Assembly: GCA_905250025.1 (NCBI GenBank)
Contig: CAJNOJ010000356.1
Coordinates: forward strand, 1-64,000
From: Adineta ricciae
Lineage: Eukaryota > Rotifera > Eurotatoria > Adinetida > Adinetidae
Reading direction: 5' to 3'
Length of the DNA stretch: 64,000 nt
The position numbers and the translations under genes were made by a program. Positions 10,775 through 43,200 of this stretch are shown piece by piece (positions within the stretch are counted from its first letter, which is position 1; the number at the start of each line of letters is the position of its first letter). Under the pieces are notes generated by a model that saw nothing but the letters and a program-made list of their open reading frames with translations, had not been told where the DNA came from and searched no databases.

Positions 10775-10775
10775 N
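10775..10775. other. Single-N assembly junction
   Basis: Joins the F-box last exon to the 5' half of a mariner transposon, and creates a chimeric open frame of 212 codons that should not be annotated as one protein. Confidence 0.9.
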
Positions 10776-21617: not shown

Positions 21618-22872
21618 ATGAGTCTCGAGTTGCTGTCGAACGAACTGTTAATCGAATTTTTCGAGTATTTATCAACTGGTGAGATTTTTCATGCGTTTCA
21701 CGGACTTAATTATCGATTTAATTCGGTTCTTGCTAATCATTTTCGAATGCATGGCTTTGATTTGCGATGCATATCTCGATCTGACTTTGACGCAATCGGT
21801 CGAATATACTTTTCATCAACACCCCAACAAATCACTTCGATCTGTTTTTCTAATAATGAACAAACTCCAGCGCAAATCAATCGTTTTTTCAACCAAGGAT
21901 TCGAATTTTCAAAATTTACGTACTTAAAGTCACTTTCGATATATTATTTGTCTCCAGGACCGTTAGCTCATCGGATCATAGGCGAACTTGGAAATTTACC
22001 CAATTTCTCTCGTCTTGTCTATAAACCTGTGTATCGATCAACCAATTCCTTTTGCGCACATCGTTTCATCAATAGCATTTGGCATTTACCAAACTTGAAA
22101 TATTGCTGTTTACAATTCAAATTTGGACCGCTCATGGTTTTTGCTATACCACTCACGGTTTCATCAAGTATTGAATATCTCACCATAGAAGATATCGATA
22201 TATCACCCAACGAATTCATTCAGCTATGCAACCAAACACCAAATTTACAGTATTTATCCTTGCGACTTGCCTTTGAACTTCCTTTCTATGGTGCGCTGTC
22301 TTTTGCTCCGAAGATCACGAAATTGTATATAACTTACACCGTTCGATCTGATCAACTGTTCTCGATACTAAAAATGCTGCCAATGATAACCTACTTGAAA
22401 TTAAATGTTCAAAGTTTTGCCATTGATGGATATCAAGCAGAAATACTTCTCCGGACAAGTTTACCACAAGTGAAACACCTGCATTTCCGCATGGTACATA
22501 CGCTCGATGATGATGATAATAAAGAACAAGAAATTGAGAAAATATTGGATACATTTCGTCGTCCGTTTTGGATTGACGAGCATCGTTTGTTTCTGCAATG
22601 CGAATGGAAGACAGATGACCGAAGCTGTGTTTTCTATACATTGCCATATGTGTTCGAAGGTTATGATTATGCAAAAGCAACTTTATTCAAATCAACGTAT
22701 CCTGTTGAAAACAAACGATGGCTGAATAAGACGGTATATGCACTCAATTATCATCTATTAGAACTCGATTGTTCTGCACCATTGAACATTCAGTTTGACA
22801 ACGTTATAGTTCTTTCTATTAAACTTCCTGTTGATGGAAAGCTTTGGTCTACAGTTGCAAGTCTTCCTCGAG
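21618..22872 (+). CDS. F-box gene 2: intronless F-box/LRR-like protein (3' cut by contig end)
   Basis: Starts at ATG 21618 (MSLELLSNELLIEFFEYLST), an F-box of the LSNELLIEFFEYL type in the first 45 residues. About 370 residues of leucine/isoleucine-rich repeat-like sequence follow (SSIEYLTIEDIDISPNEFIQ, NLQYLSLRL, KITKLYITY). No intron is needed. The frame is open to the N at 22873 at a point matching 25711 in the other copy, so about 160 C-terminal residues are missing here. Likely role is SCF-type substrate recognition, as for gene 1, but the sequence is only distantly similar to it. The other copy (24552-26190) is broken, so this may be the functional version. Confidence 0.75.
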
Positions 22873-22873
22873 N
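22873..22873. other. Single-N assembly junction (haplotype switch)
   Basis: Left of it the sequence ends inside F-box gene 2. Right of it the sequence restarts inside F-box gene 1 at the equivalent of 19926. The two contigs overlap as alternative copies of one locus. Confidence 0.9.
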
Positions 22874-22885
22874 AGAATCTTTTAC

Positions 22886-23752
22886 TTCATGACTAGCTTC
22901 GTTAAATTGCAACATGGATTAAACGACGTTGGAAATAATTCTTGCGCTTCTTTTATCACACGTGTGCCAACTTCAACATCTATTTCAGTGAAAACAACAC
23001 ATTTCTAGAGTTACTGTAGCATATTTGAGAACCTCACCAAGTGTCGTTAAGTTCGGAAGAAACATCAACAAATATTTCAGTGTAGCCAAGTTTCGAACGT
23101 GAATTTTAAGATATGTGAGAAAATGATGAGGTTGATATGATGACAGAAGAGGTTCACTAAGAAATAAACCATCTTTGGTATCACAGTGACTCATTGTACA
23201 GCTCTTCAATCGATGTTGCGCTGAGTTGCTAAAGATATGTTCACAAAGGAGAAGAGATATTTTGTCCAATGGACATTTATGCAATGTTAATTGATCGAGA
23301 TATGGAATTGTTGAGAGATATGGCGAAACATCATTGGCATCTGAATCGTGAACATTGCGCAACACAACTGTGTGCACTCGAGGAAATATATCACGAAGTG
23401 ATGAAGAACCTTGTGGAAAATAGTTTGAGAAAAAAGTCTCACATAAAATAGATTACTCACTGAGACAATAATGAGAGAAAAGGCGAATCTGGGAAAACGA
23501 ATCTCGATGACCCAGTTTCAAAATTTGTACATTGAAGCGAAATTGATCTAAGAATCGAGTACAACAGAGTTGAAATGTTGAAAGTGTTGTCGTGTAGAAA
23601 TCAATTGTCTTGTAACAATAACTTTGTAATAGTTGATTGTATCGTTGAGATTTGATCAAACTAAAACTTCGAATTGTTTCAGGATGAGTTAAATGCATCC
23701 ATATGATTAACACAAGTTCATTAGGTAAATCGGTAAAACGAGTAGGTGTCAT
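22886..23752 (-). CDS. F-box gene 1, second copy, exons 1-3 only
   Basis: Exons 23752-23461, 23409-23038 and 22979-22886 have exactly the lengths of exons 1-3 of the complete copy (292, 372 and 94 nt) with the same splice phases. Substitutions are scattered (for example SSYQPHHF in place of SSYRSHHS). The fourth exon onward is missing because the contig begins here. No stop or frameshift is seen in what is present, so it may be an intact allele cut by assembly. Confidence 0.7.
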
Positions 23753-24551
23753 CCGTGTTCTATGTTGTATATTAAATGAACAAGGTCAGTCAATTGTGGC
23801 GAGCGTTCTTCTTTGTTTATCAATGGTCAAGTAGATGCGCTTTATATCAATACTGATTTGAGCTATTCATATTTAGTTTAGTTCTTTTCTGTTATAATTG
23901 AAAGCAGAACGAGAGATTCTTTTACGTCGAAATTAAGAGCATTTTTTGTCATTTGTGTCTCCTTTTGGCATTGAAAATAGAGGTCAGCATCTACTCCACT
24001 CATTTCATATGGGTGATGTTTATAAAGAAACGCTCGAAATGGAAGAAATTCACTAGGAATGGAGTTTATAAGGTTTGCGATCATGACAATGATAACGTGT
24101 TTGACGAAATACTCGGTAATATCTATTCAGGTGCTCCTCAAAATAAATAGTATGGAGCTAATTGAAGCTATATGAGATTATTCTTGGAATGAATGGACAG
24201 AACACACTTTTTTGGTCCTTTACAGCTAAGAAAACAACATCACTCAGATACATTTACGGCGCTATCAAAACACATGAAACAGTGAAACTATATCGCTCAT
24301 TCTCTACTCAGGATGCCCTACGCATTTAAACAACATCAAAAAATTATTTTTTTGAGAACGAATTTTTCGAGGAGAGTTAGTTATACTTATACTAAGTTTA
24401 TTACAGCTTTCAAGTGCACTGTATTCTCAATAATTCAGCTTAGCTCGTGTAAAATTTCCAACTAAAATTCATACTACCGAGAATTGCTCTGAAGTACTTT
24501 GAAGAAAGGAAAGTAAAAGAAACAAAAACAGTTCGTATTTTCTTACCTAAA
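23753..24551. promoter_or_regulatory. Intergenic region between F-box genes, second copy
   Basis: Colinear with 20806-21617, with about 30 bp and several single bases lost or gained. No gene seen. Confidence 0.4.
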
Positions 24552-26190
24552 ATGAGCCTCGAGTCGCTGTCGAACGAACTGTTAATCGAATTCTTCGAGT
24601 ATTTATCAACTGGTGAGATTTTTTATACGTTTCACGGACTTAATTATCGATTTAGTTTGGTTCTTGCCAATCATTTTCGGATGCATGGCTTTGATTTGCG
24701 ATGCATATCTCGATCTGACTTTGACGCAATCGGTCGAATATACTTTTCATCAACACCCGAACAAATCACTTCGATCTGTTTTTCTAATAATGAACAAACT
24801 CCAGCGCAAATCAGTCGTTTTTTCGATCAACGATTCGGATTTTCAAAATTTACGCACTTAAAATCACTTTCGGTATATTATTTGCCTCCAGGACCGTTAG
24901 CTCATCGGATCATAGGCGAACTTCGAAATTTACCCAATTTCTCTCGTGTTGTCTATAAACTTGTGTATCGATCAACCAATTCCTTTTGCGCACATCGTTT
25001 CATCAAGTATTGAATATCTCACCATAGAAGATATCGATATATCACCCAACGAATTCATTCAGCTATGCAACCAGACACCCAATTTACAGTATTTATCCTT
25101 ACGAATTGCCTTTGAACGTCCTTTCTATAGTACGCTGTCTATTGTCCCGAAGATCACGAAATTGTATATAACTTACATCGTTCGATCTGATCAACTGTTG
25201 TCGATACTAAAAATGCTGCCAATGATAACCTACTTGAAATTAAATGTTCAAAGTTTTGCCATTGATGGATATCAAGCAGAAATACTTCTCCGGACAAATT
25301 TGCCACAAGTGAAACACCTGCATTTCCGCATGGTACATACGCTCGATGATGATGATAATAAAGAACAAGAAATTGAGAAAATATTGGATACATTTCGCCG
25401 TCCGTTTTGAACTGACGAGCATCGTTTGTTTCTGCAATGCGAATGGAGGACAGATGACGGAAGCTGTGTTTTCTATACATTGCCATATGTGTTCGAAGGT
25501 TATGATTATGCGAAAGCAACTTTATTCAAATCAACGTATCCTGTTGAAAACAAACGATGGCTGAATAAGACGGTATATGCACTCAATTATCATCTATTAG
25601 AACTCGATTGTTCTGTGCCATTGAACATTCAGTTTGACAACGTTACAGTTCTTTCTATTAAACTTCCTGTTGATGGAAAGCTTTGGTCTACAGTTGCAAG
25701 TCTTCCTCGAGTAAAACAACTTTATGTCTCACTAGCTAATGATGATGATGATGGAAATAATCGAAATCAGCTACAAAGTATACTGGGTCATATGCCTCAT
25801 CTATTAATATTTTACATTCGTGAAGACCCATCGAGAGTCTTGAATATCTTATCATTTCAAAGCGAAAACCTATCTGTATTCTTCCTAGATTTAATTTCAG
25901 CTAATTTAATATATAATAATGATCAATGTGCTCAATTGAGTCAACTATCGTTTGTTATTAATTGTAAAGCTCTTGGTATTGCTGTTGAAAATCGAACATG
26001 TGTTATAAGTCTCATTAATGCATTAAATAATCTTCAAGCATTAACGATTGTCAGTCTAGATGATAATTGGAATAGCGCATCAGTATCGGATAATGATGAA
26101 CTTGTTCGATGGTTTCAAACACAGTTACCATCTGCATACGTTATGCGAAGAAGTAATGCGCCACGAGTCATCAATTTTTGGCTACAGTGA
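24552..26190 (+). pseudogene. F-box gene 2, second copy, broken by a 95-bp deletion and a stop
   Basis: Same start (MSLESLSNELLIEFFEYLST) as the copy at 21618. At 24997-25005 the word GTTTCATCA occurs once, where the other copy has it twice, 95 bp apart (22063 and 22158). Losing one unit plus the intervening sequence shifts the frame, and translation stops at about 25013. Further on, 25408-25410 reads TGA where the other copy encodes tryptophan. Downstream, the frame runs to a stop at 26190 with the repeat region and the C-terminal part intact, ending VINFWLQ. It could still make a shortened product from an internal start, but as a full-length gene it is dead. Confidence 0.75.
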
Positions 26191-26367
26191 CTTTTTTTCC
26201 GAATTCCTTCTCTTTTACATTAATAAACATGATTCATTGCTTCGAAATGACAGAACGCGCAATTACCTACTTGTAAGTATGCGCACGTAAAACATCGAGA
26301 GAAAGAAAAAAATATAGCAAAACACACGTGTTTCACCATTTTTGTTCTTATTTTTGTAGATACATCG

Positions 26368-27273
26368 ATGTCTGACGTATCTAGTATTATTACTTTGCTA
26401 CAAAACTTTTTCATTCATCTACGTCTGAAATTTAGTCTATTTCTCGCACCTATTTATCTGTATGGTATTATCGTAGCGAATAGGAATATTTTTACATGGG
26501 AATTCTTCGTTGAATTTGTTATTCTTCATGTTTTTGTGTATGGTGGTGTGTATGCATTAAATGATTATTACGATCGAGATGAACAAGGACCGATTGGTGG
26601 ACTTGAAAATCCTCCGGCAATGAGAGGTGACACACTTTTCTATTTAGCATGGGCATGGAAATTAATTGGATTAACTCTATCGATCTTCTATTCAGCATCT
26701 ACACAATTTATTGTCAGCTGTTTTCTCGATGTTCTCATGTCAGTTGCCTATTCACATCCAAAAATTCGTCTAAAAGGTAGTCCGTTCGGAAGTGTTCTGT
26801 TGGTCATCTTCTTACAAGGTTTTCTTACTTATTATTTGGGGACAATTCTCAACAATAGTAATCTTAATGGAATCTCGTTGGTTAAATTTTGGTTAGGAGC
26901 ATTTGTTATCATTTTTCTGGTTCTCGGCACGTATCCTTTGACTCAAGTCTATCAAATCGAACAAGATAAACGTCAAGGTGATTGTACGCTCGCTATCGTC
27001 TTTGGCATTGAAAAGACTTTCCAATTTGCGTCATTATGTCTATTTGTTAGTGGCACGTTGAATAGTTTAGTTATCGGATACTATTACCATTGGTGGGAGG
27101 GTGTCATCATTCTCATCGGTTCGTTGTTATTTCAATATGATCTTCGAACATGGAGAAAGATCTTTTCCAAACAATCAGTGAATGAAAATTTTCAGACTTT
27201 ACATCGATTGTTTTCTGTTCAAACTGTTTTTCCATTTGTTTTTTGCCTTGCACATTTACTACACATTTTGTAG
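26368..27273 (+). CDS. UbiA-family membrane prenyltransferase, bacterial type
   Basis: An intronless 301-residue, strongly hydrophobic protein with about eight membrane segments. The two Asp-rich prenyl-diphosphate/Mg2+ motifs of the UbiA superfamily are present: NDYYDRD (Asn65, Asp66, Asp69, Asp71) and YQIEQDKRQGD (Tyr195 to Asp205). A YSHPKIRLKG loop (128-137) resembles the YSxPPxRLK of 4-hydroxybenzoate-type enzymes. Such proteins join an isoprenoid chain to an aromatic or other acceptor in the membrane; the acceptor is unknown. The ATG at 26368 follows a TTTTTGTAG acceptor-like site, so a 5' leader intron is possible. Lack of introns and bacterial-looking motifs suggest horizontal acquisition. 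This copy has Cys206 where the copy at 34317 has the Arg expected after the second motif. It is followed after 225 bp by a second bacterial-type gene in the same direction. Confidence 0.8.
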   Translation: MSDVSSIITLLQNFFIHLRLKFSLFLAPIYLYGIIVANRNIFTWEFFVEFVILHVFVYGGVYALNDYYDRDEQGPIGGLENPPAMRGDTLFYLAWAWKLIGLTLSIFYSASTQFIVSCFLDVLMSVAYSHPKIRLKGSPFGSVLLVIFLQGFLTYYLGTILNNSNLNGISLVKFWLGAFVIIFLVLGTYPLTQVYQIEQDKRQGDCTLAIVFGIEKTFQFASLCLFVSGTLNSLVIGYYYHWWEGVIILIGSLLFQYDLRTWRKIFSKQSVNENFQTLHRLFSVQTVFPFVFCLAHLLHIL

Positions 27274-27498
27274 CAATTATTCTCATGGCGCAAATATCGT
27301 TTGATATTCAACAAAAGTTACGTTTGCCGTTGTTTAGCTCCCAAGACTGCTAAAAAAACGGGATCACACGAAAGATTGTGTCCGATAGATGTCATTCAAA
27401 TGCGTTTCCAATACTGCGTGTCTGTCTTTTTGGGAGAGGTCATTATATGAGAGAATCATGATGGACTTCCCTATCATATTCATCTATTTAAAACATCA

Positions 27499-28311
27499 AT
27501 GTCGAACAATACTGAAAGTGCAATAACATCTATTAGACGTCTTTATGTTTTGTTATGTGGGTTTGAAATAATTCCGAAAACAATTTCAACGAAAAATCTG
27601 GGTGGGAATATTATAATGAGTGAACCTATTAGTGCATATTTACTCGACACGACTGCTGGTTGGATACTTATTGATAGTGGCATTGATGAAACAAGAATTG
27701 ATGATCCAGACTTAGCGAAAACATACTTTTTGGATCGCGGTTGGAAACCACTCCCAGTCGTTCTCCCGATGCATCGTTTAACATATCAACTATCACTGAT
27801 TGGCGTTGAACCACAAATGATCAAGTCTATTATACTAACTCACACACATGCTGATCATACGGGAAATTTAAAACATTTTCCCAATGCAAAAATTTACATT
27901 CAACGTCAAGAATACGCATATGCATTCCAATCTCAAGAAACCATAGGTAGTGCTTGGTTTCGTGATGATTATGACAATCGTCCAGAGACTGATTGGTATT
28001 TAGTAGATGGTGATATGAATATTCTTCCTGGTTTAGATCTGATATCAACACGTGGTCATACGCCCGGTCATCAATCTGTTTGTGTTCGATTACCGAGTGG
28101 AATGATTGCTATTTTGACAGGTGATGCTGGAGATTTGTTGGAAAACTATGAGAAAGAAATCTTACCAGGAGAAACAGTCGATGATCAAGCTGCACTCGAA
28201 TCAATCCGACGATTGAATCAGTTGGCATCTTTGCCTAATTCACATTTATTTATTGGCCATGATCCAATTCTTATTCAAAAACTTAAAATTGTACCGGATT
28301 ATTATGATTAA
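27499..28311 (+). CDS. AHL-lactonase-like metallo-beta-lactamase hydrolase, bacterial type
   Basis: Intronless, 270 residues, metallo-beta-lactamase fold. All metal ligands are visible: HTHADH (His115, His117, Asp119, His120), His187 in STRGHTPGHQS, Asp209 in LTGDAGD and His254 in FIGHDP. Their order and spacing closely track those I remember for Bacillus AiiA N-acyl-homoserine lactonase (104/106/108/109, 169, 191, 235). The likely reaction is hydrolysis of a lactone ring, perhaps quenching bacterial quorum signals; other lactones are possible. No signal peptide is obvious, so it is probably cytosolic. The start at 27499 (MSNNTESAITSIRR) is the one shared with the other copy. Same-strand pairing with the UbiA gene is kept in both copies. 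Convergent with the MACPF gene downstream. Confidence 0.85.
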   Translation: MSNNTESAITSIRRLYVLLCGFEIIPKTISTKNLGGNIIMSEPISAYLLDTTAGWILIDSGIDETRIDDPDLAKTYFLDRGWKPLPVVLPMHRLTYQLSLIGVEPQMIKSIILTHTHADHTGNLKHFPNAKIYIQRQEYAYAFQSQETIGSAWFRDDYDNRPETDWYLVDGDMNILPGLDLISTRGHTPGHQSVCVRLPSGMIAILTGDAGDLLENYEKEILPGETVDDQAALESIRRLNQLASLPNSHLFIGHDPILIQKLKIVPDYYD

Positions 28312-28584
28312 CTGCAGCATTTTTGCATGTGCGTGGCAAGTAAACGAATCGTCTTCGCATTCAAAACATTTATCCAATAGACAATCATTCGAAACCTTGT
28401 CTATAAAAACTGTTGATTTCGTGTCAATTTGAACTGATTTTTCATGAAAATCTTGAGGAGAAAGGCGTAAGTGACATATATTCTCATGATCTATCTAATT
28501 ACTTTTATTTCGAAATCATCTTGAATAAAATATATTCTTTATGATAAGAAGCAATCCAAAAAAGCACAAGATAGTGTTTTACTA

Positions 28585-30468
28585 CTAGATCATTTGAGTA
28601 GTTATTGTATCATAGGCTGTTGTTTCGTTTGTTGATATATCGTCTGTTGATGTTTCATTTGCGCCAACTTGTGAATAGATGGTATCGATTGAAAAGAATG
28701 GTGGTAAAGCAACAGATGGTAATTCCCGTTGATCACTGGTAGTCTCAAACTTTAAACACACTTCTAGAGCACAGTTTCCATCGATAGATCCGATAGCATA
28801 GGCGCTATAACCTTCTGAACAGCCTTTTACATGCGTTCGAGTAGCCATATTGCCATATTGGCATGAATACATACCACCATAACGAGGAAGATCTTTTCTG
28901 CTTGTTGGTGTTCTTTCAGCAAGACATACTCTGATGCCATTGATATCGTAAGCTACGAATAGGCTATCAGGACAAGTAAAAGCATTAGTTACAGGATTAA
29001 CTTTCTGCGATGCGTATGAACCACCGAACAGATAGGTCGATTGGACATCAATACTACTGTAAGAGCCAGACCGTTGAGTAGCATTACGATTGCAAACATA
29101 CAAATAAAGTTCACGTCGTCCTTGGCCTACGTAAACGTCTTCACAACATGTTTTCAACCACAAAAATCCACATTTCCAGCAATTTTGACGATATAGTGAT
29201 TGATATTGAGATGAAGTATGCAACAAATACTTATTGAAACCGTATACACACTGATCGTTGCCAGTATAGTAATTATTCTGTCGCAGATAATAGCAGTGTC
29301 TAAACAAAAACAACTTCGCTAAACATTTCTCACTGATCAGACTCGCAACTCACGACGACATGCGAGAATCTTCTGAGCAAGTGCGAATAAATCCGCCAAA
29401 TTGTGTCGATTGTGAAATTGGAGCACAAGAGCTATCCGCAACATTTGAAACCCAGTTAAAAGACGGCGAATTTCGATCCATGCATCCTCGAATCGTATTC
29501 ATTTCCACATAAGAATTAACTGCCTGCTCAATTTCTTTTCGGACGTTCGTTAATGCAACTTCGGTCATCTCAGGAAACTGGTCTGTTTGGATGAAATATG
29601 TAATGTTCTCAATACTTCGTCGAACAATAGCTGGATTCGTTTTTATCGAGGCTTGCCACGCTTCCATGTGACCGCCTAATATGAATACGTCACCACCTTT
29701 GGAACTTACCACTTTCCGTTGAATTCTGTTTTTATGTTCATTGACCGTAGCTTAATTTTGACTGGAGCTAGAACTGAAGCTTGCTGATATGCTGAATATA
29801 CCTCTGAAAGAAGCTTCTGCTGCTGCCTTGTAAGCATTTTTCGACGTAGTACTCGAATAGTAATCTGAATGAGATATGAAATTTTCTTCAACAATTGATC
29901 CACCCAAATACAACCGACTGGTAACATGTGTGCCATACTTTTTGACAAATAACTGTGCGTAATAAGTGGCCAAGAGACTCTCGTTATTCGATTGATGTTT
30001 AGCAATATTAGCTATATCCTTCTTCACTTGGGGATGTACGGGGCATGACGACTGAATAATTGCATCTACCATCAGATAGTTAATTTCATTTCGAAGAACG
30101 ACGGTCTTCTCTTGGCCTTGCTCCTTTTTTGCTGTCTGATATTCTTTGGAATAAGAGCCACTGATCTTGAAACCTAAGTAACCAGCACTGCCACCTATCA
30201 TCAGATTTGATGAATAATCACTGCTGTGCGAATTATACATGTCCATCTCTGTTGATGCCAATTCAATCTTGTTCTCATGTAAAGGAATTAGTTCAATACA
30301 TGATTGAAACTTGTCTGAATCATTAAAATTTGACACATCATAGATTGGAGACATATCCAGAAATCGTAAGTGATCCCAGCCAAAGCCTGGATACACCTGC
30401 ACTTTCAACGATCTTTCGCCGCGACAACCCAATAGTAGTAACAACCAAAGGTTGAGATAAATCTTCAT
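28585..30468 (-). pseudogene. Mpeg1/perforin-2-like MACPF gene, copy with a premature stop
   Basis: Two exons, 30468-29354 and 29299-28585, with a 54-nt GT-AG intron (29300-29353). The protein would begin with a signal peptide (hydrophobic residues 5-15), then a MACPF domain with the signature KYGTH and a Ser-rich stretch, then in the second exon the cysteine-rich C-terminal region typical of Mpeg1 (a NPxTxxFxCP-type motif). MACPF proteins oligomerise and make membrane pores; animal Mpeg1 acts against bacteria. An in-frame TAA at 29752-29754, just after the serine-rich stretch, truncates this copy at about residue 238. The remaining frame is open. The copy at 36534 is uninterrupted at this point. 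Either this allele is null or there is a sequencing error. Confidence 0.75.
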
Positions 30469-31465
30469 ATTTAACCACCGATCAATCTCTAAATCCAGGG
30501 ACTGTACTTTAAAAAAAAGGATGTTCAGGAAAGCTTTAGTAGCAAAATCTGTATGTAGTATATTTTCGCTTCGAAAATTTATTCAAGCGACCAGTACGAG
30601 GCTTAAATATTATCAATCGATACTTTAACAGTTTGTCTGAGATTGTTATATGTTTTGATCGAATTCTAAAGATTAACGGCTCATGTTACTGTTTTTCAGG
30701 TATGTATGGATCATTTTATTATATCATTATCGCAAATAATCGTAGTTTATCTATCTTTCTCCGATTTCAAAATACTTAACTAAAAAAATCATGCACAAAA
30801 ACAGGTACATGTAGGTCATACTTTTTCTCGGTGCTTTTTCTGTTACTTATCAGTATGTTTAATCATTCGATGGAAATTCGGTTAGCCGCCATTAGGTCGA
30901 AAGGACAAATGTCAAAAATTTCATTAAGAGACTTTCTCTATTCTTCAATTAATAGCATAAAATAATCACTAGGGTAGACATAGGTAAGACAGAAAAATGT
31001 AGCATTATTGTCGCTAGGCAACTATGAATGACAGACCATCAATATTTCCCATAGTTGCGATAGCACGACCACAATGTCATTCATTAAAATAACTTATATG
31101 ATGTTGGATAGCAATCGTGTTTAGCTTCTTTTTTCTTGCACATAAACCAGCAATAAATTGAGTATAAAATATGGAAAGAACGGTTTTTCTTCTAAAATTT
31201 AACGAAAGCTCAAATATTTAGATATTCTGTACTCAGCGCAACTATGAAATGCTTAATGAACATTTAGTCATTAGAACTAATTTCAGTTTCGCACGAATAG
31301 ACTCGTCAGAAAAGATTGCATATCGTGGAGGGTAACATCTGATGTTGGGTAGACAAATGTCATCTTTACATCTCTCTCTTTTCGATCTTTTCTCTCCTTC
31401 GATTTTCGGCCTAATGAGGGCACATCAGAATAATATGTGTATGACTCGGACGAGAGTCGACTGAA
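30469..31465. other. Upstream region of the MACPF gene and spacer
   Basis: No gene seen. The first 350 bp or so, adjoining the MACPF start, recur not only in the allelic copy (38440-38790) but also at 46258-46610, in front of a different gene. The rest is AT-rich spacer shared with 38790-39440. Confidence 0.5.
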
Positions 31466-32051
31466 ATGGAAGAAGAAAAAGATACCCTCACTACCGCTCG
31501 TTCGTATCGAATGAGAATTGATCGAAATAAACAAGCGTGCACGCACATCCGTCTTGTTCAACTAGGTGAGTGGTCCAATTTTGGAGACGGCACATAAGAG
31601 TGAATCTGCTTTCATATATTGAAATTCTATCGGAAGGACTATTCCAAATTCGACTATTTTTATTTACGTCATTTCTCACCATTCAAAATAAGATATAGAC
31701 AATATTTCGAATCAGTTTAAATAGGTCCATGATCAAGATGTGTTGATAGCTTGATAAACGTTTGTGTTCCTCGCAATGTCTCTACAGTTTTCTTGATGGG
31801 ATGATTCAGTGGGACGGAAAGGTGGTCAGTATACAGTTTTCGAACGGGCAAGTACACGCTTTTTCCTAGAGATGAACAAATCTTTGATGGGGCGCGCCAG
31901 ATATACGGGACTCGTGACATCCGTCTGGATAAAATACTCGGATGATCAGATTCGTAAAATTTTTCCTCTCATTTTTTTTCTATATATGTACACAAGCGAA
32001 ATCTACGCAGATCTTCTCCCGAACGAGATGGTAATAGAGCTTTTTCGTTAG
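31466..32051 (+). CDS. Small two-exon gene of unknown function, first copy
   Basis: The first exon, 31466-31565, starts MEEEKDTLTTARSYRMRIDR and ends at a GTGAGT donor. The second, 31810-32051, follows a TGATTCAG acceptor and continues in frame (phase 1), giving about 113 residues with KGGQYTVFERASTRFFLEMN in the middle. The end, LPNEMVIELFR, looks like the first helix of an F-box and stops there. Both exons, splice sites and stop are kept in the copy at 39442-40023. The 244-nt intron is longer than most here. I recognise no domain. It could be the truncated front of an F-box gene, since a full F-box gene starts 209 bp downstream. Confidence 0.5.
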
Positions 32052-32259
32052 GAGTCACCTTTTAAGATGAGATCTCTTGACTTTTCTTTCGAATGAGGTG
32101 CTTGTCTAAATGATTTTTTTGGGAAAAAATCGAAGACTACTAATTGAAAAGCTCAAAAATTTTGAGGAAAATTTCATTGGAATGATCATCACGATTCTTT
32201 GAGCTAAGATTCGCGTCAATTCGAATAAAGATTTTCTATTTAGAACTTGTGTTAATACC

Positions 32260-33639
32260 ATGCTTGGCGATCTACCTACAGAACTTTGGATGACAATAAT
32301 TGGTTACCTCTCATCATCAGATGCACTTCTAGCCTTCGCTCATACAAATAATCGTCTTAATACAATCGCTTGTCAACATATCGCTCGATGTCTTACGTTT
32401 GCCAGCAACATGTCGCTCGCTCGCTTTCGTCACTATTTTCAAGTGGAACATCCACGCGTTCGTCATCTCGTCACTCGACTTCGCATCGACGACTATATGC
32501 ATTTGAATGAACTCGTCCTTATTCTCCTCGCGAATGATCAGAACAATAATGACATTCTATTTCCTCGACTCAAACGATTTGATTTGTGGGGCTGGTATGA
32601 AGACACACATTTGAGCACATTTCTCTGTCATCCTTCTCTATTCACACTTCGTCATGTTAATATCAATATGGATCGGTGTTTGTTCAATTATCTGAATATG
32701 AACATTCTTCTCCAGTGTACCTCACTCCAATTGAAAATAGCGCCTCTTGAAACGCTAAAACTGATCTATCGGACTGGTACGTAATAATCTACTGATAAAC
32801 TCTTTTCATTTAGATCAAAAAAAGACATCTAACAAGCGACTTGTATGCACAAGATTTTAATTTTTTTTTCGAATTTCACTAAAAGAAAGCCATATACCAA
32901 GTCTAAAATGACTATTTTCCCTTTTTCAGCATGCTTTGTTCTGCAAAGAAGAAAAATATTACCCCAGACTTTTCCGTTTCGCGCAACGTTTTATAAACTC
33001 TACAATTTGATTGATTAATGAAGTTTAGTTCCTGTTCTGGAAGTTTCTGTTAACTTTTAATTTTGATAATAGTAGTGCGCTGTTTCAGTGTGATAAAACA
33101 CAACTCTGGAAATAATCGAAAAAATTAAGCTGCAAACGAAAATTGCAAATCTTTCTCGAAATGAATACGTTAACATTCTAGTTAGTGTAGCTACACGTCA
33201 TCGTTTCATTTTTCTAGTTAATCCACCCCCAATCGCGGAACGAGTTAAAACATTCCAGACTACTATTGGCTCTTGGTTACGGGTATTACCCATCGATCGA
33301 CCAATTATGGTATGGAATTCACTGGTTCAGCTGACACTATCGATCAGTGAACGGACTATTTTGTGGTTGCTTTTGGACACTTGCCCGATGCCGTCGCTTA
33401 TTCTACTTGATGTCACCTTCGAGTATGATGCTAATCCTCGTTATCCTGTCGACAAACTGACGATCATGAATGGTACAAGTAATTTCGTCGAATTGCGTAC
33501 CCTTAGGCTAAAAAATAGTCCGTTTGGTTTCATTCAACGTTTACTTGACAGCTTTAACATGTCTCGAATCGATACTGTTTCCTTTATTAATATTTATGAC
33601 AATGCTCAAGCAAATTCTGGTGAGTACGAATGCAGTTAG
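32260..33639 (+). pseudogene. F-box gene 3, first copy, 5' half with splice-site and frame damage
   Basis: ATG at 32260 opens into an F-box (LPTELWMTIIGYLSSSDALL) followed by leucine-rich sequence to a GTACGT donor near 32777. Compared with the copy at 40231, the second exon (26 nt) has lost its donor: AAAAATATT where the other has AAAGGTATT. The third exon has two extra bases near 33106, shifting its frame. From 33307 the frame is open again and ends at a GTGAGT donor (33620). The contig ends at 33915, so the two final exons are not shown. It is damaged if the exon model from the other copy is right; an alternative splice pattern cannot be excluded. Confidence 0.5.
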
Positions 33640-33916: not shown

Positions 33917-34134
33917 TTGGTATTGCTGTTGAAAATCGAACATGTGTTATAAGTCTCATTAATGCATTAAATAATCTTCAAGCATTAACGATTGTCAGTC
34001 TAGATGATAATTGGAATAGCGCATCAGTATCGGATAACGATGAACTTGTTCGATGGTTTCAAACACAGTTACCATCTGCATACGTTATGCGAAGAAGTAA
34101 TGCGCCACGAGTCATCAATTTTTGGCTACAGTGA
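33917..34134 (+). CDS. F-box gene 2, C-terminal fragment at contig start
   Basis: Encodes the last 72 residues or so of F-box gene 2, ending VINFWLQ before the TGA at 34132-34134. Nearly identical to 25973-26190, with one silent difference. The rest of the gene lies outside this contig. Confidence 0.7.
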
Positions 34135-34316
34135 CTTATTTTTTTCCGAATTCCTTCTCTTTTACATTAATAAACATGATTCATTGCTTCGAAATGACAG
34201 AACGCGCAATTACCTACTTGTATGTATGTGCACGTAAAACATCGAGAGAAAGAAAAAAATATATAGCAAAACACACGTGTTTCACCATTTTTGTTCTTAT
34301 TTTTGTAGATACATCG

Positions 34317-35222
34317 ATGTCTGACGTGTCAAGTACTATTACTTTGCTACAAAACTTTTTCATTCATCTACGTCTGAAATTTAGTCTATTTCTCGCACCG
34401 ATTTATCTGTATGGTATTATTATAGCGAATAGGAATATTTTTACATGGGAATTCTTGATTGAATTTGTTATTCTTCATGTTTTTGTGTATGGTGGCGTAT
34501 ATGCATTAAATGATTATTACGATCGAGATGAACAAGGACCGATCGGTGGACTTGAACATCCTCCGGCAATGAGAGGTGACACACTTTTCTATTTAGCATG
34601 GGCATGGAAATTAATTGGATTAACTCTATCGATCTTCTATTCAACATCTACACAATTTATTGTCAGTTGTTTTCTCGATGTTCTCATGTCAGTTGCCTAT
34701 TCACATCCAAAAATTCGTTTAAAAGGTAGTCCGTTCGGAAGTGTTCTGTTGGTCATCTTCTTACAAGGTTTTCTCACCTATTATTTGGGGACAATTCTCG
34801 ACGATAGTAATCTTAATGGAATCTCATTGGTTAAATTTTGGTTAGGAGCATTTGTTATCATTTTTCTGGTTCTCGGCACATATCCTTTGACTCAAGTCTA
34901 TCAAATCGAACAAGATAAACGTCAAGGTGATCGTACGCTCGCTATCGTCTTTGGCATTGAAAAGACTTTCCAATTTGCGTCATTATGTCTATTTGTCAGT
35001 GGCACGTTGAATAGTTTAGTAATTGGATACTATTACCATTGGTGGGAGGGTGTCATCATTTTCATCGGTTCGTTGTTATTTCAATATGATCTTCGAAAAT
35101 GGAGAAAGATCTTTTCCAAACAATCAGTCAATGAAAATTTTCAGACTTTACATCAATTGTTTTCTGTTCAAACTGTTTTTCCATTTGTTTTTTGTCTTGC
35201 ACATTTACTACACATTTTGTAG
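34317..35222 (+). CDS. UbiA-family membrane prenyltransferase, second copy
   Basis: A 301-residue intronless protein aligning without gaps to the product of 26368-27273. Both Asp-rich motifs are intact (NDYYDRDEQG; YQIEQDKRQGDRTLAIVFG), and here the second is followed by Arg as in typical family members. Differences are few and mostly conservative (Ile36, Leu47-Ile48, His81, Asp162-Asp163, Phe, Lys and Gln near the end). The frame is open upstream to 34122, but the shared Met at 34317 is the better start. Bacterial-type origin is inferred from the lack of introns and from motif style. Confidence 0.8.
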   Translation: MSDVSSTITLLQNFFIHLRLKFSLFLAPIYLYGIIIANRNIFTWEFLIEFVILHVFVYGGVYALNDYYDRDEQGPIGGLEHPPAMRGDTLFYLAWAWKLIGLTLSIFYSTSTQFIVSCFLDVLMSVAYSHPKIRLKGSPFGSVLLVIFLQGFLTYYLGTILDDSNLNGISLVKFWLGAFVIIFLVLGTYPLTQVYQIEQDKRQGDRTLAIVFGIEKTFQFASLCLFVSGTLNSLVIGYYYHWWEGVIIFIGSLLFQYDLRKWRKIFSKQSVNENFQTLHQLFSVQTVFPFVFCLAHLLHIL

Positions 35223-35449
35223 CAATGATTCTCATGGCGCAAATATCGTTTCGGTATTCAACAAAAGTTACGCTTACCGTTGTTTAGCTCGGAAGACTGC
35301 TAAAAGAACGGGATCACACGAAAGATTGTGTCCGATAGATGTCATTCAAATGCGTTTCCACTACTGCGTGTCTGTCTTTTTGGGAGAGGTCATTCTATGA
35401 GAGAATCATGGTGGACTTTCCTATCAATATTAATCTATTTAAAACATCA

Positions 35450-36262
35450 ATGTCGAACAATACTGAAAGTGCAATAACATCTATTAGACGTCTTTATGTT
35501 TTGTTATGTGGTTTTGAAATAATTCCGAAAACAATTTCAACGAAAAATCTGGGTGGAAATATTATAATGAGTGAACCTATTAGTGCATATTTACTCGACA
35601 CGACTGCTGGTTGGATACTTGTTGATAGTGGCATTGATGAAACAAGAATTGATGATCCAGACTTAGCGAAAACATACTTTTTGGATCGCGGTTGGAAACC
35701 ACTCCCAGTCGTTCTCCCGACGCATCGTTTAACATATCAACTATCACTAATTGATGTTGAGCCACAAATGATCAAGTCTATTATACTGACTCACACACAT
35801 GCTGATCATACGGGAAATTTAAAACATTTTCCCGATGCAAAAATTTACATTCAACGTCAAGAATACGCATATGCATTCCAATCTCGTGAAACCATAGGTA
35901 GTGCTTGGTTTCGTGATGATTATGACAATCGCCCAGAGACTGATTGGTATTTAGTAGATGGTGACATGAATATTCTTCCTGGCTTAGATCTAATATCAAC
36001 ACGTGGTCATACGCCCGGCCATCAATCTGTTCGTGTTCGATTACCGAGTGGAATGATTGCTATTTTGACAGGTGATGCTGGAGATTTGTTGGAAAACTAT
36101 GAGAAAGAAATCTTACCAGGGGAAACAGTCGATGATGAAGCTGCGCTTGAATCAATTCGACGATTGAATCAGTTGGCATCTTTGCCTAATTCACATTTAT
36201 TTATTGGCCATGATCCGATTCTTATTCGAAAACTTAAAATTGTACCGGATTATTATGATTAA
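35450..36262 (+). CDS. AHL-lactonase-like metallo-beta-lactamase hydrolase, second copy
   Basis: A 270-residue intronless protein with every predicted metal ligand conserved (HTHADH, GHTPGHQS, TGDAGD, FIGHDP). It differs from the 27499 copy at a few surface-type positions (for example Thr91, Asp102, Arg146, Arg195). The upstream in-frame extension to 35339 is not shared with the other copy, where a TGA interrupts it, so 35450 is chosen. That both copies keep all ligands and an intact frame argues that the function is under selection. Confidence 0.85.
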   Translation: MSNNTESAITSIRRLYVLLCGFEIIPKTISTKNLGGNIIMSEPISAYLLDTTAGWILVDSGIDETRIDDPDLAKTYFLDRGWKPLPVVLPTHRLTYQLSLIDVEPQMIKSIILTHTHADHTGNLKHFPDAKIYIQRQEYAYAFQSRETIGSAWFRDDYDNRPETDWYLVDGDMNILPGLDLISTRGHTPGHQSVRVRLPSGMIAILTGDAGDLLENYEKEILPGETVDDEAALESIRRLNQLASLPNSHLFIGHDPILIRKLKIVPDYYD

Positions 36263-36533
36263 CTGCAGCATTTTTGCATGTGCGTGGCAAGTAAATGAAT
36301 CGTCTTCGCATTCAAAACATTTATCCAATAGACCACCATTCGAAACTGTGGCTATAAAAACTATTGATTTCGTGTCAATTTCAACTGATTTTTCATGAAA
36401 ACCTTGAGGAGAAAGGCGTAAGTGACATATATTCTCATGATCTATCTAATTATTTTTATTTCGAAATCATCTTGAATAAAATGTATTCTTTATGATAAGA
36501 AGCAACCCAAAAAAGTACAATAGTGTTTTACTA

Positions 36534-38417
36534 CTAGATCATTTGAGTAGTTATTGTATCATAGGCTGTTGTTTCGTTTGTTGATATATCGTCTGTTGAT
36601 GTTTCATTTGCGCCAACTTGTGAATAGATGGTATCAATTGAAAAGAATGGTGGTAAAGCAACAGATGGTAATTCCCGTTGATCACTGGTAGTCTCAAACT
36701 TTAAACACACTTCTAGAGCACAGTTTCCATCGACAGATCCGATAGCATAGGCGCTATAACCTTCTGAACAGCCTCTTACATGCGTTCGAGTAGCCATATT
36801 GCCATATTGGCATGAATACATACCACCATAACGAGGAAGATCTTTTCTGCTTGTTGGTGTTCTTTCAGCAAGACATACTCTGATGCCATTGATATCGTAA
36901 GCTACGAATAGGCTATCAGGACAAGTAAAAGCATTAGTTACAGGATTAACTTTCTGCGATGTGTATGAACCACCGAACAGATAGGTCGATTGGACATCGA
37001 TACTACTGTAAGAACCAGACCGTTGAGTAGCATTACGATTGCAAACATACAAATAAAGTTCACGTCGTCCTTCGCCTACGTAAACGTCTTCACAACATGT
37101 CCTCAACCACAAAAATCCACATTTCCAGCAATTTTGACGATATAGTGATTGATATTGAGATGAAGTATGCAACAAATACTTATTGAAACCGTGTACGCAT
37201 TGATCGTTGCCAGTATAGTAATTATTCTGTCGCAGATAATAGCAGTGTCTAAACAAAAACAACTTCGCTAAATATTTCTCACTGATCAGACTCGCAACTC
37301 ACGGCGACATGCGAGAATCTTCTGAGCAGGTGCGAATGAAGCCACCGAATTGTGTCAATTGAGAAATTGGAGCACAAGAACTATCCGCGACATTTGAAAC
37401 CCAGTTAAAAGACGGTGAATTTCGATCCATGCATCCTCGAATCGTATTCATTTCCACATAAGAATTAACTGCCTGTTCAATTTCTTTTCGAACGTTCGTT
37501 AATGCAACTTCGGTCATCTCGGGAAACTGGTCTGTTTGGATGAAATATGTGATGTTCTCAATACTTCGTCGAACAATAGCTGGATTCGTTTTTATCGAGG
37601 CTTGCCACGCTTCCATATGACCGCCTAATATGAATACGTCACCACCCTTAGAACTTACCACTTTCCGTTGAATTCTGTTTTTATGTTCATTGACCGTAGC
37701 TTGATTTTGACTGGAGCTAGAACTGAAGCTTGCTGATATGCTGAATGTACCTCTGAACGAAGCTTCTGCGGCTGCCTTGTAAGCATTCTTTGACGTAGTA
37801 CTCGAATAGTAATCTGAATGAGATATGAAATCTTCTTCAACAATTGATCCGCCCAAATACAACCGACTGGTGAAATGTGTGCCATACTTTTTAACAAATA
37901 ACTGTGCATGATAAGTGGCCAAGAGACTCTCGTTGTTCGATTGAAGTTTGGCAATATTAACTATATCCTTCTTCACTTGGGGATGTACGGGACATGACGA
38001 CTGAATAATTGCATCTACCATCAGATAGTTAATTTCATTTCGGAGAACGATAGTCTTTTCTTGGCTTTGCTCTTTTTTTGCTGTCTGATATTCTTTGGAA
38101 TAAGAGCCACTGATCTTGAAACCTAAGAAACCAGCACTACCACCTATCATCAGATTTGATGAATAGTCACTGCTGTGCAAATTATACATGTCCATCTCTG
38201 TTGATGCCAATTCAATCTTGTTCTCATGTAAAGGAATTAGTTCAATACATGATTGAAACTTGTCTGAATCATTAAAATTTGACACATCATAGATTGGAGA
38301 CATATCAAGAAATCGTAAGTGATCCCAACCAAAGCCTGGATAAACCTGCACTTTCAACGATCTTTCGCCGCGACAACCCAGTAGTAATAACAACCAAAAG
38401 TTGAGATAAATCTCCAT
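36534..38417 (-). CDS. Mpeg1/perforin-2-like MACPF protein, intact copy
   Basis: Exons 38417-37303 and 37248-36534, with a 54-nt intron, encode about 609 residues. Start ATG at 38417 is followed by a hydrophobic signal peptide. The MACPF domain occupies roughly residues 25-350, with the KYGTH signature near residue 180, flanked by two Ser/Thr-rich beta-hairpin regions. The second exon supplies a cysteine-rich region with the NPxTxxFxCP-type motif seen after the MACPF domain of Mpeg1. No hydrophobic C-terminal anchor is visible; the end is acidic and Thr-rich, so the product is probably secreted or vesicular rather than membrane-anchored. The family forms ring-shaped pores, and in animals Mpeg1 is an antibacterial effector. 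Convergent with the lactonase gene (stop codons 271 bp apart). Confidence 0.8.
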
Positions 38418-39441
38418 ATTCAATCACCGATCACTTTCTAAATCTGGGACTGTACTTTTAAAAAAAGGATGTTCAGGAAAGCTTTAGTAGCAAAATCTGT
38501 ATGTAGTATATTTTCGCTTCGAAACTTTATTCAGGCGAACAGTATGAGGCTTAAATATTATCGATCGATACTTTAACAGTTTGTCTGAGATTGTTATATA
38601 TTTTGATCGAATTCTGAAAATTAACGTCTCATGTTACTGTTTTTCAAGTATGTATAAATCATTTCAACATATCATTATTGCAAATAATCATAGTTAATCG
38701 ATCTTTCTCTGATTTCAAAACACTCAACAAAAAAAATCATGCACAAAAACGAGTACATGTAGGTCATGCTTTTTCTCGGTACCTTTTCTGTTACTTACCA
38801 GTATGTTTAATCATTCGATGGAAATTCGGTTGGCCGCCATTAGGTCGAAAGGACAAATGTCAAAAATTTCATTAAGAGATATTCTCTATTCTTCAATTAA
38901 TAACATAAAATAATCACTAGGGTAGACATAGGTAAGACAGAAAAATGTAGCATTATTGTCGCTAGGCAACTATGAATGACAGACCATCAATATTTCCCAT
39001 AGTTGCGATAACACCACTACAATGTCATTCATTAAAATAACTTATATGATACTGTATGGCAATCGTTTTTAGCTTCTTTTTTCTTGCACATAAACCAGCA
39101 ATAAATTGAGTATAAAATATGGAAAGAACGATTTTTCTTCTCATTAGAGGAATTTAACGAAAGCTCAAATATTTAGATATTCTGTACTCAGCGCAACTAT
39201 GAAATGCTTAATGAACATTTAGTCATTACAACTAATTTCACTTTCACACGAATAGACTCGTCAGAAAAGATTGTATATCGTAGAGGATAACATCTGATGT
39301 TGGGTAGACAAATGTCATCTTTACATCTCTCTCTTTTCGATCTTTTCTCCTTCGATTTTAGTCCATTTGGTCTTATTATTTTCGGCCTAATGAGGGCACA
39401 TCAGAATAATATGTGAATGACTCGGACGAGAGTCGACTGAA
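38418..39441. other. Upstream region of the MACPF gene and spacer, second copy
   Basis: Colinear with 30469-31465. No gene seen. The segment next to the MACPF start recurs at 46258-46610. Confidence 0.5.
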
Positions 39442-40023
39442 ATGGAAGAAGAAAAAGATATCCTCACTACCGCTCGTTCGTATCGAATGAGAATTGATCG
39501 AAATAAACAAACGTGCACGCACATCCGTCTCGTTCAACTAGGTGAGTGATCCAAGTTTGGAGACGGCACATAAGAGTGAATCTGCTTTCAAATATTGAAA
39601 TTCTATCGGAAGGACTATTCCAAATTCGACTATTTTAACGTCGTTTCTCACCATTCAAAATAAGATATAGAAAACATTTCGAATCAGTTTAAATAGGTCC
39701 ATGATCAAGATGTGTTGATAGCTTGATAAACGTTTGTGTTCCTCGCAATGTTTCTACAGTTTTCTTGATGGGATGATTCAGTGGGACGGAAGGGTGGTCA
39801 GTATACAGTTTTCGAACGGCCAAGTACACGCTTTTTCCTAGAGATGAACAAATCTTTGATGGGGCGCGTCAGATATACGGGACTCGTGACGTCCGTCTGG
39901 ATAAAATACTCGGATGATCAGTTTCGTAAAATTTTTCCTCTCATTTTTTTTCTATATATGTACACAAGCGAAATCTACGCAGATCGTTTCCCAAACGAGG
40001 CGATAATAGAGATTTTTCGTTAG
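39442..40023 (+). CDS. Small two-exon gene of unknown function, second copy
   Basis: Exons 39442-39541 and 39782-40023 with the same splice phases as 31466-32051. Substitutions near the end turn LPNEMVIELFR into FPNEAIIEIFR, keeping the F-box-helix-like pattern and the stop. No known domain. Conservation of both splice sites and the frame in two copies is the main reason to call it a gene. Confidence 0.5.
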
Positions 40024-40230
40024 GAGTCACCTTTTAAGATGAGATCTCTTGACTTTTCTTTCGAATGAGGTGCTTGTCTAAATGATTTGTTGGGAAAAAA
40101 TCGAAGACTACTAATTGAAAAGCTCAAAAATTTTGAGGAAAATTTCATTGGAATGATCATCACGATTCTTTGCGCTAAGATTCGCGTCAATTCGAATAAA
40201 GATTTTCTATTTAGAACTTGTGTTAATACC

Positions 40231-43200
40231 ATGTTTGACGATCTACCTACCGAACTTTGGATGACAATAATTGGTTACCTCTCATCATCAGATGCACTTC
40301 TAGCCTTCGCTCATACAAGTAATCGTCTTAATACAATCGCTTGTCAACATATCGCTCGATGTCTTACGTTTGCCAGCAACATGTCGCTCGCTCGCTTTCG
40401 TCACTATTTTCAAGTGGGACATCCACGCGTTCGTCATCTCGTCACTCGACTTCGCATCGACGACTATATGCATTTGAATGAACTCGTCCTTATTCTCCTC
40501 GCGAATGATCAGAACAATAATGACATTCTATTTCCTCGACTCAAACAATTTGATTTGTGGGGCTGGTATGAAGACACACATTTGAGCACATTTCTCTCTC
40601 ATCCTTCTCTATTCACACTTCGTCATGTTAATATCAATATGCATCGGTGTTTGTTCAATTATCTGAATATGAACATTCTTCTCCAGTGTACCTCTCTCCA
40701 ATTGAAAATAGCGCCTCTTGAAACGCTAAAACTGATCTATCGGACTGGTACGTAATAGTCTACTGATAAACTCGTTTCATTTAGATAAAAAAAAGACATC
40801 TAACAAACGATTTGTATGCACACGATTTTCATTTCTTTTTCGAATTTCACTAAAAAAAAACCATATACCAAGTCTAAAATGACTATTTCCCCCTTTTCAG
40901 CATGGTTTGTTCTGCAAAGAAGAAAGGTATTACCTCAGACTTTTCCGTTTCGTGCAATGTTTTATAAACTCTACAATTTTATTGATTAATGAAGTTTAGT
41001 CCTTGTTCTGGAAGTTTCTGTTAACTTTTAATTTTCATAATAGTAGTGCGCTGTTTCAGTGTTATAAAACAACTCTGGAAATAATCGAAAAAATTAAGCT
41101 GCAAACGAAAATTGCAAATCTTTCTCGAAATGAATACGTTAACATTCTGGTTAGTGTAGCTACACATCATCGTTTCATTTTTCTAGTTAATCCACCCCCA
41201 ATCGCGGAACGAGTTAAAACATTCCAGACTACTATTGACTCTTGGTTACGGGTATTACCCATCGATCGACCCATTATGGTATGGAGCTCACTGGTTCAGC
41301 TGACACTATCGATCAGTGAACGGACTATTTTGTGGTTGCTGTTGGACACTTGTCCGATGCCGTCGCTTATTCTACTTGATGTCACCTTCGAGTATGATGC
41401 TAATCCTCGTTATCCTGTGGATAAACTGATGGTCATGAATGGTGCAAGTAATTTCGTCGAATTGCGTACCCTTAGGCTAAAAAATAGTCCGTTTAGTTTC
41501 ATTCAACATTTACTTGACAGCTTTAACATGTCTCGAATCGATACTGTTTCCTTTATTAATATTTATGACAATGCTCAAGCAAATTCTGGTGAGTACGAAT
41601 GCAGTTAGTTATTGTCAAATTCTTCATCTGGTACATCCACGATGTAAATCGGATTTTTGACGGCGAAGATGTATTCATTTCGGCTTTCAGACACCATTTC
41701 ATAAATACGTCTGGTTCAGTGAATTCGACTAATCTAGACTAGAGCATGACACAACCAAAGTCAGTCCCAGTGGAAGATTTGGTCGCGTTTTTNTGCTCAA
41801 GCAAATTCTGGTGAGTACGAATGCAGTTAGTTATTGTCATATTCTTCATCTGGTACATCCACGATGTAAATCGGATTTTTGACGTCGAAGATGTATTCAT
41901 TTCGGCTTTCAGACACCATTTCATAAATACGTCTGGTTCAGTGAATTCGACTAATCTAGACTAGAGCATGACACAACCAAAGTCAGTCCCAGTGGAAGAT
42001 TTGGTCGCGTTTTTATCTAATATCGAATACTATCGTTCGGAAGAAATTCATCGCTAAGTTGAGCTAGTACATAAGACCTTTATTTCCACCACACAAGTCT
42101 ACACAGAACGATCCGATGAGATTTGTATTTAATGCAATATATCCAAAACTTGGAGAAAAGTGCATTCTATAACTGGGACTATGAGTAAACAGGTTAATTT
42201 GTGTTGCTTGGATTCGGATGCCTTTAGTATTCTCGATTAATGTTGAAATGAAATGTACCATTAGATTTGAACAATCGTCTAAGAATGCATGCATATCAAT
42301 TTTAGTGTGCTCAAACGACGCTTGGTCTCGGCTTATCACCAGTCGATTACCTCATCTTCATCAATTCGAATTGAAAGTGCTCATCGATCCAATTCCTCTA
42401 CCTGCTGCCATTGATCGTCTCATTCAATCATTTTGCTTTGATCCTGTTCTAAGCAGTTGGCCAGTGAGCGCTTTTATCGACGAAAGATTTAACCACAGTC
42501 GCGATTTTGCACATTTGAAAGAGGCTAGTCGACTTGTTCTGCACACTCTTCCCTATCCAGGAAGGCGCGATGTGATGGACGAACTTTGGAATTTTGATAT
42601 TGTTTCAAAGCGAAGAGAGGCATTGCGTACTGCTTCTCATATTGGTCGACATATCAACTGGTACGTCAACGAAACCATCCAGTACGACGAATCTTTCAAG
42701 CTCTTGTCGAAATTAATGACTCGTCGAGTTCGATCAATTCGTCTCGTCTATTCGGCCGTGGACGAAAGCGAACCGAAGGTAATTTCTTCTTGTGTGCCCA
42801 CAAAATCGATTTGGAGCTGACCGCATATGGCAATAGCTCAAAAGTTTTCTATGAAAATCTAGACATGTTTTTAACCGAACGAACTTACATAGTTATTCAC
42901 TCAAAAATATCTCTGGAGAATACTGCAAGGCGTCCATAGCAAAAGTTTCAGCTTTATCACACAAATTTGAATAGGGGTCGTAACGTAGCTGCAATTTAAA
43001 AACTCGATATTTTACGCTGAGCACATGAAAAGACGTTCGAACCATTTCTAGATTTCCATAGGAAGCTTTGAGCTATTGCTCTATATGATCAGATTTTCTT
43101 TAAACATACAAGAGGGAGGGGAGCGAGGTATTCTTAAATCTTCAATAGTATGTTTAGATTTCTTCAAGATTACGCAGAGAGTGGAAATTATAAAAGTAGA

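Follow-up and report, generated by a model that had tools for sequence, protein, structure and literature searches.

How do two genes described as bacterial in type come to lie side by side in an animal genome, and does their adjacency reflect a common origin or function? We consider this question for a UbiA-family prenyltransferase gene and an AiiA-like lactonase gene of the metallo-β-lactamase (MBL) fold in the bdelloid rotifer Adineta ricciae, both found in a 64,000-nt stretch of contig C356 (the window; coordinates are window positions unless another contig is named). We favor, with moderate confidence, a single bdelloid locus represented by two alleles, in which the two genes are unrelated neighbors: a lactonase gene transferred from bacteria and an older UbiA gene. 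Both copies of the pair are open, and are arranged as follows.

26368..27273, + strand: UbiA-family prenyltransferase gene; open reading frame (ORF) of 301 aa encoding a hydrophobic membrane protein; Pfam UbiA
27274..27498, + strand: spacer between UbiA and lactonase, 225 bp
27499..28311, + strand: AiiA-like MBL-fold lactonase gene; ORF of 270 aa; Pfam Lactamase_B
34317..35222, + strand: UbiA gene, most likely of the other haplotype; open frame
35450..36262, + strand: lactonase gene, most likely of the other haplotype; open frame

The initial annotation of two genes transcribed in the same direction, 225 bp apart, is borne out by domain assignments, with the first ORF matching Pfam UbiA (E 4.6e-18, 65.8 bits against a cut-off of 34.2) and the second Pfam Lactamase_B (E 2.6e-22, 80.2 bits against 22.7), which places the latter in the MBL-fold superfamily. 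Nei-Gojobori estimates made with our own script give omega values between the two copies of 0.18 for UbiA and 0.14 for the lactonase, and therefore both proteins are maintained by purifying selection. The lactonase carries all seven metal ligands (H115, H117, D119, H120, H187, D209 and H254, comprising the HxHxDH motif, a His, an Asp and a His) when compared with the ligand residues of AiiA given in PMC12388617, and these seven are kept in 38/38 rows of our alignment.

Searches for lactonase homologues, which covered prokaryotes, plasmids and viruses, lead to an alphaproteobacterial MBL-fold subfamily that shares a D-x-G-D-L motif with the rotifer protein at 50% (L003), 46% (L004, Devosia), 44% (L028) and 46% (L029) identity. 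An exact-peptide-pattern scan of bacterial and archaeal genomes returns three loci, two full and one partial. Alphaproteobacteria were searched as 289 and then 376 genomes; three of the 376, the genome at the center of the search included, match at 1e-71 to 1e-78, the fourth best reaches only 1e-28, and 31 match at 1e-22. No match at 1e-40 is found among 246 genomes of the order of a Sphingomonas metagenome-assembled genome (MAG), which says little because the gene of the central genome is itself cut by a contig end. Plasmid records yield 508 matches, all below 60% identity and at about 33% at best among the best 40 of the 508.

Of 27 loci fetched anew (L060-L086), 26 entered a 38-row tree (L064, which has an internal stop, is too short); the partial locus L005 was left out, and two of the Alphaproteobacteria matches have no locus. 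The two rotifer alleles and the four alphaproteobacterial rows form a clade (96/88) with no resolution at its inner fork; a Paraburkholderia row (95/90) and then AiiA (92/83) lie next out, both on long branches, and AttM falls into a separate clade. A 12-row tree is weaker: it groups the rotifer with the four alphaproteobacterial rows and a Paraburkholderia row (88/89) and sets AiiA beside AttM (77/67). On the basis of these sequence comparisons, the lactonase gene was probably acquired from bacteria by horizontal transfer, and the donor would be bacterial, most likely a carrier of the alphaproteobacterial subfamily with which the rotifer protein groups in the tree. The description of both genes as bacterial-type thus stands for the lactonase but is not established for UbiA, for which no close relative was found.

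The base composition of the lactonase gene differs from that of its bacterial relatives, with a GC content at third codon positions (GC3) of 0.233 compared to 0.794 (L003) and 0.788 (L004) in the two measured. The window as a whole has a GC content of 35.8%, and values of 35.6% and 30.8% are given for A. ricciae and A. vaga, respectively (PMC5916493). We propose that the lactonase gene has ameliorated to the A+T-rich composition of the animal, and that after its transfer it would have come under the purifying selection described above.

Several points weigh against this account. The GC3 of the lactonase gene lies below that of five other ORFs in the window (0.326-0.385) and is an imperfect match to its neighbors. 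In the tree the rotifer rows form one arm of a fork beside the bacterial rows and are not nested in a bacterial genus, and AiiA itself, on its long branch, is sister to the wider clade. Exact peptide patterns can miss nearer relatives, and the searches covered prokaryotes, plasmids and viruses, such that the gene may have been transferred via fungi or may belong to a wider eukaryotic family. An indirect route, in which a fungus or some other eukaryote first took the gene from bacteria and the rotifer then acquired it, yielding an enzyme that acts on fungal lactones and not on N-acyl homoserine lactones (AHLs), would accord with the plentiful fungal-origin genes of Rotifera (PMC13342648) and with a bacterial quorum-quenching lactonase said to hydrolyze a fungal mycotoxin (PMC8537011), but the nearest sequences found, within the scope of our searches, are alphaproteobacterial, and we regard this route as rather unlikely compared to direct acquisition from a bacterium.

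What, then, might the lactonase do? Among solved structures, AiiA-type chains come nearest to it in sequence (E 9.8e-33), and AiiA (PDB 2br6) is matched over nearly its full length, with the HxHxDH and GHxxGH motifs as well as the seven ligands, albeit at 30% identity. AttM/BlcC of Agrobacterium shares the fold family, ligands and length at 31% identity, but belongs to a different clade. The best NCBIfam model is likewise AiiA (NF045699), at 152.4 bits against a cut-off of 375, and the rotifer protein scores 133.7 bits against a cut-off of 390 on the AttM model (NF045700), on which AttM itself, as a positive control, scores 486.4 bits; the alphaproteobacterial relatives L003, L004 and L028 also miss both cut-offs. 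The rotifer Asp212 occupies the position of the catalytic Tyr194 of AiiA, whose role is described in PMC12388617 and PMC11958948. Across the 38 rows this position is Tyr in 21, Asp in nine and His in eight, and the Asp rows include the two rotifer alleles and two rows outside the rotifer's wider clade. A Glu in a phosphotriesterase (PTE)-family lactonase has been equated with Tyr194 (PMC11958948), so an active enzyme need not have Tyr at this position.

We find it likely from these features that the rotifer protein works like a lactonase, while AHL degradation stays only possible because Asp replaces Tyr194 and the scores fall far short of the AiiA and AttM cut-offs. A Kyte-Doolittle profile reveals no hydrophobic segment in the lactonase (no signal-peptide predictor was run), and an AlphaFold model with a mean pLDDT of 47.9 was not used. 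We suggest that the product would be soluble and probably cytosolic, a two-metal hydrolase acting on lactones or similar esters as they enter the cell and opening their ring, with AHL as one candidate substrate.

The UbiA gene presents another picture. Its best NCBIfam model, PRK12884, gives 48.9 bits against a cut-off of 269. The first Asp-rich motif, ND..D, is present as NDYYDRD in 4/4 rotifer copies, and the region of the second, TQVYQIEQD, aligns to NDFKAVEGD and similar sequences, with E198 and D200 kept and Gln193 found where four of four aligned bacterial relatives have Asp. The motifs initially described as textbook are present as quoted, but YQIEQDKRQGD is a variant of the second UbiA motif. 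Only five of 299 Pseudomonadota match the rotifer UbiA, and distantly (E 4e-12 to 3e-6); in three of these five genomes the match appears by eye to be a bacteriochlorophyll synthase-like protein in a photosynthesis cluster, the name BchG being given from the proteins and their neighbors by eye. Such bacteriochlorophyll/chlorophyll synthase-like members share the ND..D motif and an aligned AYS.P..RLK stretch with the rotifer protein, but are 18-21% identical to it and have Asp for its Gln193. At a threshold of E 0.01, 72,556 plasmid records contain no match to the rotifer UbiA, and viral contigs yield none either. A search of solved structures with the single sequence retrieves none, and a profile search retrieves only glutathione S-transferase (E 0.07), while a COQ2 exon used as a control does retrieve UbiA structures.

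Within the rotifer's own genome, where locus counts are lower bounds, 17 match pieces to Pfam UbiA are found, and UbiA genes of the window's type occupy two loci, namely the window alleles and two copies on contig C614 that are 60-61% identical to them. Homologues in A. ricciae have a mean KS of 0.135 (SD 0.036) and ohnologues a mean of 1.27 (SD 0.146), compared to 0.05 and 0.61, respectively, in A. vaga (PMC5916493); in divergence as in GC content, the window's host resembles A. ricciae more than A. vaga. The dS of 1.53 between the two UbiA loci lies within the ohnologue range, nearly 2 SD above the ohnologue mean, and a comparison of six-frame ORFs of C614 with 94 kb of C356 reveals UbiA to be the only shared gene. 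We propose that UbiA is older in the rotifer lineage, with a second locus at ohnologue-like divergence; its product would be a membrane prenyltransferase that neighbors the lactonase by accident. A clearly different type of UbiA-family gene is found at C70:12714-13391 and C633:3953-4630 (L016 and L017), with a 297-aa open frame; it is reminiscent of fungal UbiA proteins and may be a further foreign gene.

The initial annotation had read the pairing as a hint of joint acquisition from one donor or of a shared lipid/lactone pathway, with the lactonase disarming the AHL signals of food bacteria. The two genes are adjacent, on one strand and only 225 bp apart, with no AATAAA between them in either haplotype, and AiiA is the nearest relative of the lactonase both among solved structures by sequence and in NCBIfam, all of which would suit this reading. 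A UbiA gene beside the lactonase gene, however, occurs in none of five lactonase-bearing bacterial genomes, a small sample made up partly of fragmentary MAGs. These same five genomes carry one or two UbiA-family genes each, which in three of them (G002, G035 and G546) are on contigs other than that of the lactonase; in the other two, no UbiA ORF is seen by eye on the short lactonase contigs (L003 and L005). The neighbors of the alphaproteobacterial lactonase genes are by eye transporter, oxygenase or housekeeping ORFs. The rotifer UbiA alignment finds no match in three of the five. The C614 UbiA locus has no lactonase, and no second lactonase locus is present among the matches found in the rotifer genome. 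One lactonase locus as opposed to two for UbiA, together with the lack of a pairing in the five bacterial genomes, therefore speaks for separate histories. The lack of a UbiA match on plasmid records and its distant matches in Pseudomonadota, the Asp at the position of Tyr194 and the lack of a hydrophobic segment that might serve export also argue against a joint donor with AHL destruction as the outcome, which we consider highly improbable. A shared pathway is not supported, and co-location without common origin fits best.

Could the pair nevertheless be expressed together? The following features bear on this question.

26273..26359, + strand: candidate 5′ untranslated region (5′UTR) intron of the UbiA gene, GTAAGT...TTTTTGTAG, 87 bp; prediction
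34220-34308: candidate 5′UTR intron, other haplotype, GTATGT...TTTTTGTAG, 89 bp; prediction
28524..28529, + strand: AATAAA signal 3′ of the lactonase gene, with a counterpart at 36475 in the other haplotype

Neither AATAAA nor ATTAAA, the canonical signals looked for, is found in the 225-bp spacer of either haplotype. This would suit a joint transcript, which in turn would imply a functional link, and so counts as a further point against the genes being unrelated neighbors. Both coding parts lack introns, as initially annotated, although the candidate 87-bp intron ends eight bases before the UbiA start. Between haplotypes the intron candidate is 97.7% identical, at least as similar as the coding sequences are (96.7% and 96.9%), such that divergence alone provides no argument for an intron, and the AG before UbiA could be a spliced-leader acceptor instead of an intron end.

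Spliced leaders are also what identify the host. As a query we used a 23-base form of the bdelloid leader that is one base off the genomic form. It has no exact match in the rotifer's own genome, but 46 places match with three or fewer mismatches, a single one-mismatch form accounting for 41 of these, and the reversed control matches none; these near-exact matches identify the host as a bdelloid rotifer. On a few contigs (C6, C8, C77 and C99) leader sequences are found many times, often in inverted pairs with a spacing of about 150 bases. Over half of bdelloid transcripts begin with a 23-nt spliced leader, in contrast to a monogonont (PMC1925144).

An operon made in the rotifer, with no shared bacterial origin for the two genes and with spliced-leader trans-splicing separating their joint transcript, would draw on this prevalence of the leader, on the acceptor-like TTTTTGTAG before UbiA, and on a spacer devoid of canonical poly(A) signals with AATAAA after the lactonase in both haplotypes. 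By eye, however, no strong acceptor directly precedes the lactonase start, and we hold such an operon to be doubtful. It is less probable still that an intracellular lactonase of the Asp-type subfamily, expressed on one transcript with the prenyltransferase, destroys bacterial or fungal lactone signals or toxins; if true, this would constitute signal-quenching by an animal through an acquired gene. We continue to favor two genes that would have no functional link.

Are there two loci or two alleles in the window? The features that decide this, and the neighboring genes, are as follows.

24552..26190, + strand: upstream gene copy with broken frames; leucine-rich repeat (LRR)/F-box-like by eye only
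28585..30468, − strand: MACPF-domain gene, convergent neighbor; GT-AG interval at 29300-29353; premature stop in this haplotype
33916: contig join marked by one N, bounding the second copy on the left
33917..41792: probable alternative-haplotype contig laid in tandem, 95.9% identical to 25973-33823
41793: contig join marked by one N, bounding the second copy on the right

The second pair was initially read as preservation of the pair. It is indeed open and 96% (UbiA) and 97% (lactonase) identical to the first at the protein level, but offers poor evidence of an independent duplicate. In a self-comparison of the window, the second copy fills exactly the space between the Ns at 33916 and 41793, and the 313 bp on its left (33603-33915) recur without a difference on its right (41794-42106), these being ends common to both outer contigs. 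The single-N edges and identical outer ends would be expected if a contig of the other haplotype had been set between two overlapping contigs. Single Ns occur at eight positions of the window (4064, 10775, 17789, 22873, 33916, 41793, 44188 and 55100) and a run of 34 Ns at 57302-57335, with further joins at C614:16076 and C356:78222. C614 has the same layout, with about 16 kb present twice at 90-93% identity and the single N at 16076 between. Between copies, dS is 0.096 (UbiA) and 0.0975 (lactonase), and the pair of UbiA copies on C614 gives 0.095; all three values lie about 1 SD under the mean for homologues in A. ricciae.

Genuine duplication in tandem, over about 7.9 kb, would explain why both copies sit on one scaffold, and near-identical pairs of other UbiA-family genes found on separate contigs indicate that a tandem layout is not general for alleles. 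The single-N edges, the shared 313-bp ends, the C614 layout and an allele-like dS that is equal (0.095-0.098) in three gene pairs nonetheless make a duplication improbable, and we judge it less likely than a second haplotype scaffolded in tandem, which the second copy most likely represents. Several tandem repeats of about 90-96% identity have their edges at N joins in both contigs examined, and alternative haplotypes seem to be scaffolded in series in C356 and C614. Next to the run of Ns at 57302-57335, a 169-bp inverted repeat (54879-55047 and 57337-57505) with arms 99.4% identical is perhaps another scaffolding artefact.

The pair is physically linked to an animal gene. The N-free stretch 22874-33915 contains UbiA, the lactonase and the MACPF gene together, and the latter looks intron-bearing because a 54-bp GT-AG interval with an internal stop is present in both haplotypes; we infer that the two ORFs flanking the interval form one gene. 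Pfam MACPF matches the first of these ORFs in the other haplotype (E 5.2e-21), and no Pfam match is found for the second. A bacterial contaminant as the source of the pair is very unlikely and we reject it, given that the pair and this intron-bearing gene share one N-free stretch in both haplotypes. The last ORF of the upstream gene copy has no Pfam match, and a related ORF at 21609-22892 has a match to LRR_14 only, below its cut-off.

The MACPF gene copies (28585-30468 and 36534-38423, − strand) are stop-interrupted in the first and open in the second, and have relatives on C139 and C879 at 47-53% identity. Elsewhere in the window, an open frame at 10375-11013 (− strand) crosses a single N and is fused to other sequence there; its start is, by eye, a mariner/SETMAR-like DNA-binding stretch. 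A His-Pro-rich low-complexity repeat tract lies within an open frame at 1997-2569.

Foreign genes in bdelloids are already known, and the lactonase is one more bacterial-type case, resembling other horizontally acquired bdelloid genes in its bdelloid host, in the bacterial origin of the nearest sequences found, in its linkage to an intron-bearing gene and in its A+T-rich composition. The terms lactonase, lactamase, prenyltransferase and quorum are absent from the main texts of PMC3499245, PMC11258130 and PMC13342648, as is UbiA from those of the first two. Literature searches, with supplements and preprints outside their scope, return nothing relevant on a bdelloid lactonase or a bdelloid UbiA, and no animal AiiA-type gene appears in titles or abstract openings among the matches listed. 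These genes may already figure in automated foreign-gene lists.

Until shown otherwise, tandem copies in this assembly are best regarded as alleles, since tandem "duplicates" are probably alleles joined by single Ns and would mislead gene-copy counts. The lactonase also draws attention to a bacterial lactonase subfamily with Asp at the catalytic Tyr position, which has no NCBIfam model of its own among those checked. For the rotifer itself, an AiiA-like lactonase maintained by selection in an animal would provide a concrete and cheaply testable animal enzyme acting on microbial lactones.

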